From contig JAIRVP010000002.1 in assembly GCA_031253835.1 (NCBI GenBank), positions 1 through 64,000 of the forward strand: a DNA stretch of 64,000 nucleotides. Reading direction: 5' to 3'. Positions 17,505-58,377 of the stretch are shown in pieces; positions within the stretch are counted from its first letter, which is position 1, and the number at the start of each line of letters is the position of its first letter. Position numbers and translations under genes: made by a program. The stretch is from Burkholderia sp. (lineage in GTDB: Bacteria > Pseudomonadota > Gammaproteobacteria > Burkholderiales > Burkholderiaceae). The notes beneath the pieces are model-generated. The model made no database searches and was not told the origin of the DNA. It saw only the letters and a list, made by a program, of their open reading frames with translations.

Positions 17505-18536
<1,032 letters not shown>

Positions 18537-18573
18537 TTACGGAACCCTTAGGTGATTTTTGGGAGCGTTGGTA

Positions 18574-18579
18574 TATGAT
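18574..18579 (+). promoter_or_regulatory. -10 element for the hemB-engB small RNA
   Basis: TATGAT at 18574-18579 (5 of 6 match) with TGG just before TATATG gives an extended -10 look. The -35 (GTGATT, 18552-18557, spacer 16) is poor. GGAAC at 18541-18545 resembles a sigmaE -35, but no sigmaE -10 was found at the right distance. Confidence 0.45.
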
Positions 18580-18585
18580 AGCGAT

Positions 18586-18690
18586 CGAGCGGCACGCGTC
18601 GCGTGCAGCTCCCCGCTTCTCCTCCCTGAGCGGGTGCCTGTCGTTTTTCGATTAGGCTGTTTGACCCGCCGTTCAACGGCGGGTTTTTTT
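18586..18690 (+). ncRNA. probable small regulatory RNA between hemB and engB
   Basis: About 105 bases, facing engB. Four hairpins read in order: GCACG/CGTGC (18592-18606); CCCGCT/AGCGGG (18612-18634) whose 11-base loop is TCTCCTCCCTG; GCCT-TCG/CGA-AGGC (18636-18657) with a T5 loop; and a strong terminator ACCCGCCGTT/AACGGCGGGT (18664-18684) ending in seven T. The C/U-rich loop is complementary to Shine-Dalgarno sequences, a layout common in trans-acting small RNAs. Spot 42 in E. coli and ErsA in Pseudomonas also lie next to engB and face it. No protein frame of note is present. Start is inferred from the -10 at 18574. Confidence 0.7.
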
Positions 18691-18756
18691 ATGAGCCGGC
18701 CGAATCCGCAGGCGCCGTCAGGTGCGCGCCGCCGATCCCGGCCGCGCGTTGCCCGA

Positions 18757-19416
18757 TCATTGTGCTACAGGCTCGCTTTTTTCGTCGGCGACCGACGGCC
18801 GCAGCCAGCTCTCGATCAGCTCGTGTGCCTCGTCGAGCCCCGTGCGCTTCAGCGCGGAGAACAGCTGGACCGTCAGCTTGCCCTGGACGCCCTGGTCGCG
18901 ATACGCATCGAGCCCCTTTTGCGTGGTCCGCAGCGCATTGATGCTTTCCTGGCGCGTCAATTTGTCGCACTTGGTCAGCAGCGTGTGGATCGGCTTGCCG
19001 GTCGGCGTGAACCACTCGATCATGCGGCGATCGAGGTCGGTCAGCGGACGGCGCGAATCCATCATCAGGATCAGGCCGCAGAGCTGCGAGCGCGTCGCGA
19101 GGTAGGACGACAGCAGCATCTCCCAGTGCGCCTTGGCGGCGCCGGGCACTTCCGCGTAGCCGTAGCCGGGCAGGTCGACGAGGTTCGCGACGGGCTCGGC
19201 GGCCGGGCCGACGGAGAAGTAGTTGATATGCTGCGTGCGGCCGGGCGTCTTCGACGCGAAGGCCAGCCGCTTCTGGTTGCACAGCACGTTGATCGCCGTC
19301 GACTTGCCGGCATTCGAGCGGCCCGCGAACGCGATTTCCGGCTGGACCGTCGGCGGCAGGTCGCGCAGATGGTTGACGGTCGTGTAGAAGCGGGCTTGAT
19401 GGAGCAAAAAGGCCAT
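18757..19416 (-). CDS. engB: ribosome biogenesis GTP-binding protein EngB (YsxC/YihA)
   Basis: 219 residues with all G motifs: P-loop GRSNAGKS at residues 32-39, the switch I Thr in KTPGRTQ, DLPGYG, TKCDK and a late SA motif. The family is a GTPase needed for 50S maturation in the cytoplasm. It lies on the opposite strand from the small RNA, whose terminator ends 66 bases beyond the engB stop, so engB read-through would be antisense to it. Confidence 0.96.
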
Positions 19417-58203: not shown

Positions 58204-58213
58204 GGCCGACGAC

Positions 58214-58320
58214 GAAACAGGGGTGCTCCGTGGCGCGGCCGGCAGATGTTCCGGGCAGCGCAGCGAGGCTGAGAAAAACCCTTTGCACCCGATCCGGGTA
58301 ATACCGGCGAGGGAAGTTTC
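58214..58320 (+). ncRNA. TPP riboswitch (THI element)
   Basis: GAAAC (58214-58218) pairs with GTTTC (58316-58320) as P1. The conserved pyrimidine-sensor half reads GGGGTG then GGCTGAGA (58267-58274), and the pyrophosphate half reads CCCGATCCGGGTAATACC then GGCGAGGGAAG. It senses thiamin pyrophosphate and turns down the thi genes. The middle arm (58226-58262) is long and GC-rich, a variable part of the class. Confidence 0.95.
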
Positions 58321-58377
58321 TGATCCCGCCGGGTCGCGCTGGCCGCCATCCCACATGGTCAGCGCCCGAGTCCGCCC

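Follow-up and report, generated by a model that had tools for sequence, protein, structure and literature searches.

The closest described counterpart of the RNA treated here is ncS04 of Burkholderia cenocepacia J2315, which is listed as anti-hemB with a length of 105 nt and the arrow pattern <- -> <- (PMC5688073, PMC4603805). The start of ncS04 was taken from dRNA-Seq and its 3' end was determined by RACE. The RNA was seen on Northern blots, its co-purification with Hfq is cited, and qPCR revealed no significant change in seven tabulated conditions (Table 2) (PMC5688073, PMC4603805). In their passages on ncS04 the published accounts name neither a function nor mRNA targets. A 2012 study of B. 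pseudomallei includes Anti-hemB in its table of homologues (PMC3521395), and a review gives hemB as the predicted target of Bc7. Judging from this predicted target and from the cited Hfq binding of ncS04, Bc7 is probably the RF02837/ncS04 RNA.

In Pseudomonas the small RNA ErsA was reported in the gap between polA and engB (PMC8575079), and it is reviewed as a sigma-22 dependent RNA that acts at the ribosome binding site together with Hfq. Spot 42 (spf) of E. coli is located between polA and yihA (engB) and faces engB; a CRP site has been described upstream of spf (PMC3295665). The Xanthomonas RNA sX13 lies downstream of polA, has a length of 115 nt and forms three hairpins with C-rich loops, and these loops repress mRNAs with G-rich motifs near their start sites (PMC3771888). 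The authors of that study raised the question of whether small RNAs are encoded next to polA in other bacteria too (PMC3771888). A search of the literature, covering open-licence papers, found no publication describing a common family of these RNAs.

We analyzed a stretch of 64,000 nucleotides from a Burkholderia sp. genome (contig JAIRVP010000002.1), called the window in the following. Pfam identified hemB (ALAD; 17505-18503, minus strand), engB (MMR_HSR1; 18757-19416, minus strand) and a cytochrome c gene beyond engB. The small RNA lies between hemB and engB on the opposite strand. An Rfam covariance search, which the earlier note had proposed as a check, matched 18610-18692 to RF02837, "Burkholderia RNA 7 (anti-hemB)", with 85.6 bits (cut-off 49.5) over model positions 1-81 of 81. 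The window RNA is the already known RF02837 (anti-hemB, ncS04) small RNA, which had gone unnoticed in the earlier note; since it was already catalogued, the window adds one more copy. The consensus hairpins and the terminator of RF02837 are present in the window copy, as seen in alignment and fold, and the copy shows no difference from the family. Like ncS04, the window RNA has the arrows <- -> <- and a length of 105 nt, although the latter value is taken over from ncS04, which lies between BCAL0264 and BCAL0265, presumably hemB and engB. A covariance model trained on sequences of the order only (R1) matched 18588-18691 with 84.6 bits, the sole match at E ≤ 10 in the window. If the RNA ends at 18692, the length of ncS04 places its start at 18588. 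The features of the locus are as follows.

18551..18558, plus strand: putative degenerate -35 region GGTGATTT, from a fixed-distance comparison; relatives have GGAACTT or GGAAACTT there
18572..18580, plus strand: -10 region TATATGATA, read directly from the sequence, with TATGAT at 18574-18579
18588..18692, plus strand: small RNA of the anti-hemB / ncS04 type, 105 nt, from the RF02837 and R1 matches
18588..18611, plus strand: 5' hairpin, variable in sequence, from the fold, its first pair using 18587; unpaired in the alignment consensus
18612..18634, plus strand: hairpin with the anti-Shine-Dalgarno loop, from the fold; 11-base loop 18618-18628, TCTCCTCCCTG
18636..18657, plus strand: third hairpin, from the fold
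18663..18692, plus strand: intrinsic terminator with U tail; 10-pair stem 18663-18685, U tail to 18692

The earlier note had claimed an independent RNA of about 105 bases with a TATGAT -10, three hairpins, a strong terminator and an 11-base anti-Shine-Dalgarno loop in the second hairpin, and each of these elements was recovered. The RF02837 and R1 matches and the 105-nt ncS04 counterpart agree with the claimed RNA, the hexamer is present, and all three hairpins and the terminator fold. The minimum free energy of the window RNA is -54.5 kcal/mol compared to -34.8 ± 3.6 for shuffled sequences (z -5.5; 0 of 200 shuffles as low), and the z-score published for ncS04, -5.5, is near this value (PMC5688073, PMC4603805). 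For eight bases of the loop, UCCUCCCU, the predicted probability of being unpaired is 1.0. A GGAAC reported upstream is indeed present, at 18541, although at a position different from that of the -35 region of the relatives (18551-18558). Elsewhere in the window a TPP riboswitch was found at 58209-58332 on the plus strand, above its Rfam cut-off (63.1 bits).

The distribution of RF02837 was determined in genomes of the family and the order of the window. At E ≤ 0.001 a match was obtained in 277 of 299 family genomes, 241 of them above the cut-off, and in 232 of 300 order genomes, 190 of them above the cut-off; in the order 112 of 134 genera were matched. No match at this threshold was found in 22 family and 68 order genomes. 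We take the sampled family, order and class to be Burkholderiaceae, Burkholderiales and Gammaproteobacteria, respectively; in GTDB the Burkholderiales correspond roughly to all beta-proteobacteria. Because of the 190 order genomes above the cut-off, the RNA family is wider than the name of RF02837.

Both hemB and engB flank the RNA in 47 of 51 family loci above the cut-off. The exceptions are L042 with hemB only, L046 with engB only, and L054 and L055 with neither gene. In the latter two, which belong to two genera of the family, a copy of about 50 bits (match from 1501, plus strand) lies away from hemB-engB, and its upstream neighbour resembles by eye a cytochrome c protein. Outside the family, 47 order loci (L065-L111) were examined; hemB and engB are both present in 33 of them, engB only in 8, hemB only in 1 and neither in 5. 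The RNA runs in the same direction as engB in seven of the eight loci with engB but no detected hemB; in the eighth, L091, it faces engB, and the contig ends 66 bases past the match. The orientation facing engB is common, not fixed. In three of the loci lacking hemB (L077, L088 and L092, from three families) the next gene beyond the RNA resembles by eye a CheY/PilG-type response regulator. One order genome (G526) carries six RF02837 matches, four of them above the cut-off, at L102, L120 and other places, and the two copies that were fetched are located neither beside hemB nor beside engB.

The neighbourhood of engB was then compared across the class. Of 143 class genomes 123 had an engB match, and 80 of these were taken by rank; ten were skipped by hand, namely the window's own genome, another from the order of the window and eight more, mostly with engB close to the contig start. 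A cytochrome c gene is located 5' of engB in 54 of the 80 loci, as in the window, and elsewhere in one more; polA lies 3' of engB in 32, and hemB was detected in none of the 80. Searching these loci with R1 yielded 48 matches at E ≤ 1 (best 57.4 bits, E 6e-19). Four of them, weaker than 3.3e-4, were dropped. The 44 retained at E ≤ 3.3e-4 are spread over 42 of the 80 loci, which belong to other families of the class. Each of the 44 is located 3' of engB; 42 face the gene, 2 run the same way as it, and 24 reach E ≤ 6e-11. No R1 match at E ≤ 1 was obtained in 35 of the 80 loci. The covariance models were controlled by their calibration and by the 64-kb window.

When 369 whole genomes of the class were searched, R1 gave a match in 154, including 3 from the order of the window, and none at E ≤ 0.001 in 215. 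For 48 genomes with engB and an R1 match, one match per genome was listed and weaker ones are absent from the listing: 37 of these matches lie within 1.5 kb 3' of engB, 35 of them facing it, and 11 lie elsewhere. At its own cut-offs Rfam names the RNA in one of 20 such class loci (L186, RF02837, 50.7 bits). Apparently, RF02837 belongs to a kinship far older and broader than the name conveys. One class genome (L207, 2472-3229, minus strand) carries four tandem copies of the engB-side RNA, each of about 120 nt with a spacing of about 210 nt. A second model, trained on the class (R2), gave a match in 54 of 249 genomes across the phylum. Outside the class its best score was 36.6 bits; there, 11 genomes of a single family, f244 (L306 etc.), were matched, and these matches may represent a remote relative of the RNA or a look-alike.

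Conservation of structure was examined in two alignments. The first (A1) contains 51 order sequences, 14 from the family and 37 from outside, mostly from strong RF02837 loci. The second (A3) contains 35 class matches with E ≤ 1e-6; they were taken from 30 chosen loci and include tandem copies. In A1, 94.4% of the cells pair, 12 of 19 pairs are changed on both sides, and the covariation of 0.286 exceeds that of shuffled alignments (0.111 ± 0.009). Three of the four modelled pairs of the third hairpin and all eight of the terminator are changed on both sides. The loop hairpin has one pair only of this kind; its stem hardly varies in A1, so that its support within the order is conservation. In A3 all seven pairs of the loop hairpin are changed on both sides, and the covariation of 0.527 (shuffled 0.151 ± 0.013), which is lost when the partners are slid, leans towards structure because this alignment was fitted to the model.

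The loop itself is well kept. The sequence CCTCCCTGA is found in 47 of 51 A1 sequences; of the 35 A3 sequences, 34 have CTCCC and 20 have the longer CTCCCTGA. According to prediction, CUCCCU is mainly unpaired in all 49 A1 sequences that hold it, as is the loop core in 30 of the 35 A3 sequences. Stems and loop that were not conserved in relatives had been named earlier as evidence that would speak against the RNA; both are kept, with compensatory changes. In many order copies outside the family (L065-L105) the terminator hairpin carries a second C-rich loop, e.g. CTCCCCTTT; the terminator of the window copy has a short loop only.

Unpaired CU-rich stretches complementary to ribosome binding sites also occur in RF02278 (Betaproteobacteria toxic small RNA), which differs from the window RNA by its double hairpin structure. 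Membership of the window RNA in RF02278 was rejected (16.3 bits, cut-off 50); a true RF02278 copy is present elsewhere in the same genome (L004). At L123 (1501-1592, plus strand) a loop hairpin of the anti-hemB kind is, as seen by eye, directly followed by a double hairpin with terminator that resembles RF02278; two anti-ribosome-site RNAs may be fused here.

Since the loop of the window RNA resembles the anti-Shine-Dalgarno sequence, it might mimic the corresponding end of 16S rRNA and lower translation broadly instead of selecting targets, perhaps like the RF02278 RNAs. Cloned in E. coli, these are described as toxic, and B. cenocepacia is reported to have grown more slowly when one such RNA, ncS27, was overexpressed. 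We consider such broad action rather unlikely, because the stretch conserved in nearly all A1 sequences exceeds the Shine-Dalgarno core, the other hairpins are conserved too, Hfq association is cited and the score for RF02278 stays far below its cut-off.

Sigma-E promoters have the form GAACTT-N14-18-TCNNA. A sigma-E-type promoter was counted when this pattern reached a score of at least 8 upstream of the RNA. This was observed for 34 of the 44 class copies (shuffles 4.3%) and for 39 of the 47 order copies outside the family (L065-L111; shuffles 4.2%), mostly with a spacing of 16 or 17. For the family, 28 of the 51 loci were evaluated after near-identical ones had been left out. Nine of these 28 copies reached the score (shuffles 3.3%). 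A -10 region of the form TATRTSATM, similar to TATATGATA, was present in 22 of the 28 family copies and in 0 of the 47 order copies outside the family.

The window copy (L001) has a sigma-E-type score of 6.5, below 8. A simple sigma-70 scan found no two-hexamer promoter at the window RNA either, so that the window shows a -10 region without a good -35 region. In a fixed-distance comparison GGTGATTT of the window (18551-18558) stands opposite GGAAACTT of L037, and TGATA (18576-18580) stands opposite TCATA of the same locus. Intermediate forms were observed: AGAACTT followed by ATCATA in L046, GAAACTT followed by ATCATA in L037, and GGTGATTT followed by ATGATA in the window. On the basis of these sequences we read the series as a stepwise change in the window's family, which would have led from a sigma-E promoter to one of the housekeeping type. 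Such a change fits the absence of ncS04 induction reported in B. cenocepacia. It would be incomplete in the family, because nine of 28 copies still reach the sigma-E score.

The relationship to ErsA was investigated in a scan of named genomes comprising 80 loci, nearly all from Pseudomonas or Stutzerimonas and including P. aeruginosa PA7 (L262). The polA-engB gap of L262 contains TGAACTT-N16-GTCAGA, and C-rich loops are present both in its terminator and, judged by eye, in a hairpin in the middle. A strict promoter pattern was found in 38 of 78 loci of this set, two short loci being omitted (shuffles 1.1%). Like the window RNA, ErsA adjoins and faces engB. It shares the sigma-E-type promoter with the relatives in class and order, whereas the window copy stays below that score, and its terminator has a C-rich loop. 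Unlike the window RNA, it has no CCTCCCTGA hairpin; CTCCCT[GA]A occurs in one of the 80 loci.

R1 marks the place of ErsA weakly in 62 of the 80 loci (E 0.00015 to 0.13). With R2 the place was matched in 22 of 25 chosen loci, mostly ones already matched by R1, at 24.5-32.6 bits, and no match was obtained in the three Stutzerimonas loci among the 25. Matches of 24-30 bits are also scattered in whole genomes, and therefore the sequence evidence for ErsA counts only together with place, direction and promoter. Common descent of the window RNA and ErsA is likely, because many class engB-side RNAs share promoter type, hairpin, loop and place.

The earlier note had weighed distant descent against repeated use of the engB locus, with Spot 42 and ErsA as possible counterparts. 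A link to the class engB-side RNAs was found and is likely for ErsA; kinship with Spot 42 is unsupported. Spot 42 is the best R1 match in its own 6-kb locus (13.3 bits, E 3e-4; next 4.7), but this match rests on the terminator and skips the loop hairpin. R2 likewise finds Spot 42 as the best match in its own locus, with 17.1 bits compared to 17.2 bits for an unrelated place in the window. Among the 13 Rfam matches listed for 18400-18800 at E ≤ 5 there was no match to the Spot 42 family. Spot 42 shares the engB-side place with the window RNA and little else.

sX13 resembles the window RNA by its description, with a place downstream of polA, three hairpins and C-rich loops. It differs in being described as restricted to the Xanthomonadaceae, Hfq-independent and located before a hypothetical gene (PMC3771888).

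Different small RNAs could have taken the engB-side gap repeatedly, with C-rich loops arising independently. Spot 42 and sX13 both adjoin polA and lack mutual sequence similarity, and C-rich loops are known in unrelated small RNAs (PMC3771888); the model scores of ErsA are modest as well. For the class RNAs as a whole such convergence is quite improbable, since the order of the elements, the loop, and the kind and distance of the promoter would all have to converge, and since 24 class matches reach the low E-values given above. For Spot 42 and sX13 convergence may apply.

We now turn to the explanation that we hold to be probable: an Hfq-assisted RNA that acts in trans against ribosome binding sites, descends from an old engB-side RNA and has undergone promoter drift. 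Within it we infer the mode of action, the targets, the sigma factor use and its change, and the descent of ErsA. The small RNA would be transcribed towards engB from its own promoter and end at its own terminator. Its single-stranded loop, UCUCCUCCCUG, would pair in trans, assisted by Hfq, with the purine-rich ribosome binding sites of some mRNAs and lower their translation. The ancestor would be an older engB-side RNA that was probably activated through sigma-E, the envelope-stress sigma factor, and from which the RNAs next to engB in many other class families, and probably also ErsA, would be derived. In the lineage of the window the promoter would have drifted to a housekeeping-like -10 region, and the RNA would now be made steadily.

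With up to one mismatch allowed, a search with the 13-base loop complement yielded 5 sites including the RNA itself, compared to 2 for a backwards control. Three of the four non-self sites have no start codon in place. The remaining one, CAGGGAGGAGAAC, is a ribosome binding site located 4 bases upstream of the start codon (ATG) of a gene that is predicted to encode a metal-dependent hydrolase (PF10118). It is a 12-base perfect complement, and the duplex was calculated at -25.2 kcal/mol; 0 of nearly 3000 random stretches were as strong. The hydrolase mRNA is a candidate target, as yet only a lead without statistical support.

The start of hemB, in contrast, pairs with the loop at only -6.4 kcal/mol (median of random stretches -6.8), and the hemB-antisense reading of the Rfam name is unsupported. 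A cis-acting role, in which the RNA would serve as antisense to the hemB leader or to a read-through transcript of engB and hemB, is highly improbable. In its favour, engB and hemB share one strand, the RNA between them lies on the opposite one, and hemB adjoins the RNA in 47 + 1 of the 51 loci of the family and in 34 of the 47 order loci. Against it, hemB was detected in none of the class engB loci, where polA is often found, the RNA mostly runs the same way as engB in the engB-only order loci, some copies lie away from both genes or in tandem, and the conserved part is the loop. Action in trans is favoured by the constancy of the loop despite changing neighbours and directions, and by the occurrence of tandem copies.

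Taken together, "Burkholderia RNA 7" is in our view probably the Burkholderia branch of an ancient sigma-E-driven anti-Shine-Dalgarno RNA that was present beside engB in the common ancestor of beta- and gamma-proteobacteria. It would persist as ErsA and, in many families of the gamma-proteobacteria, as an RNA next to engB, and would have been released from sigma-E stepwise in the window's family. The searches performed here answer the question raised by the authors of the sX13 study, as a small RNA is found at the polA locus in many families. They also tie a little-studied Burkholderia RNA to ErsA, for which targets and regulation have been reported. The reading predicts that the RNA would respond to envelope stress in most relatives outside the window's family and would not do so in Burkholderia.
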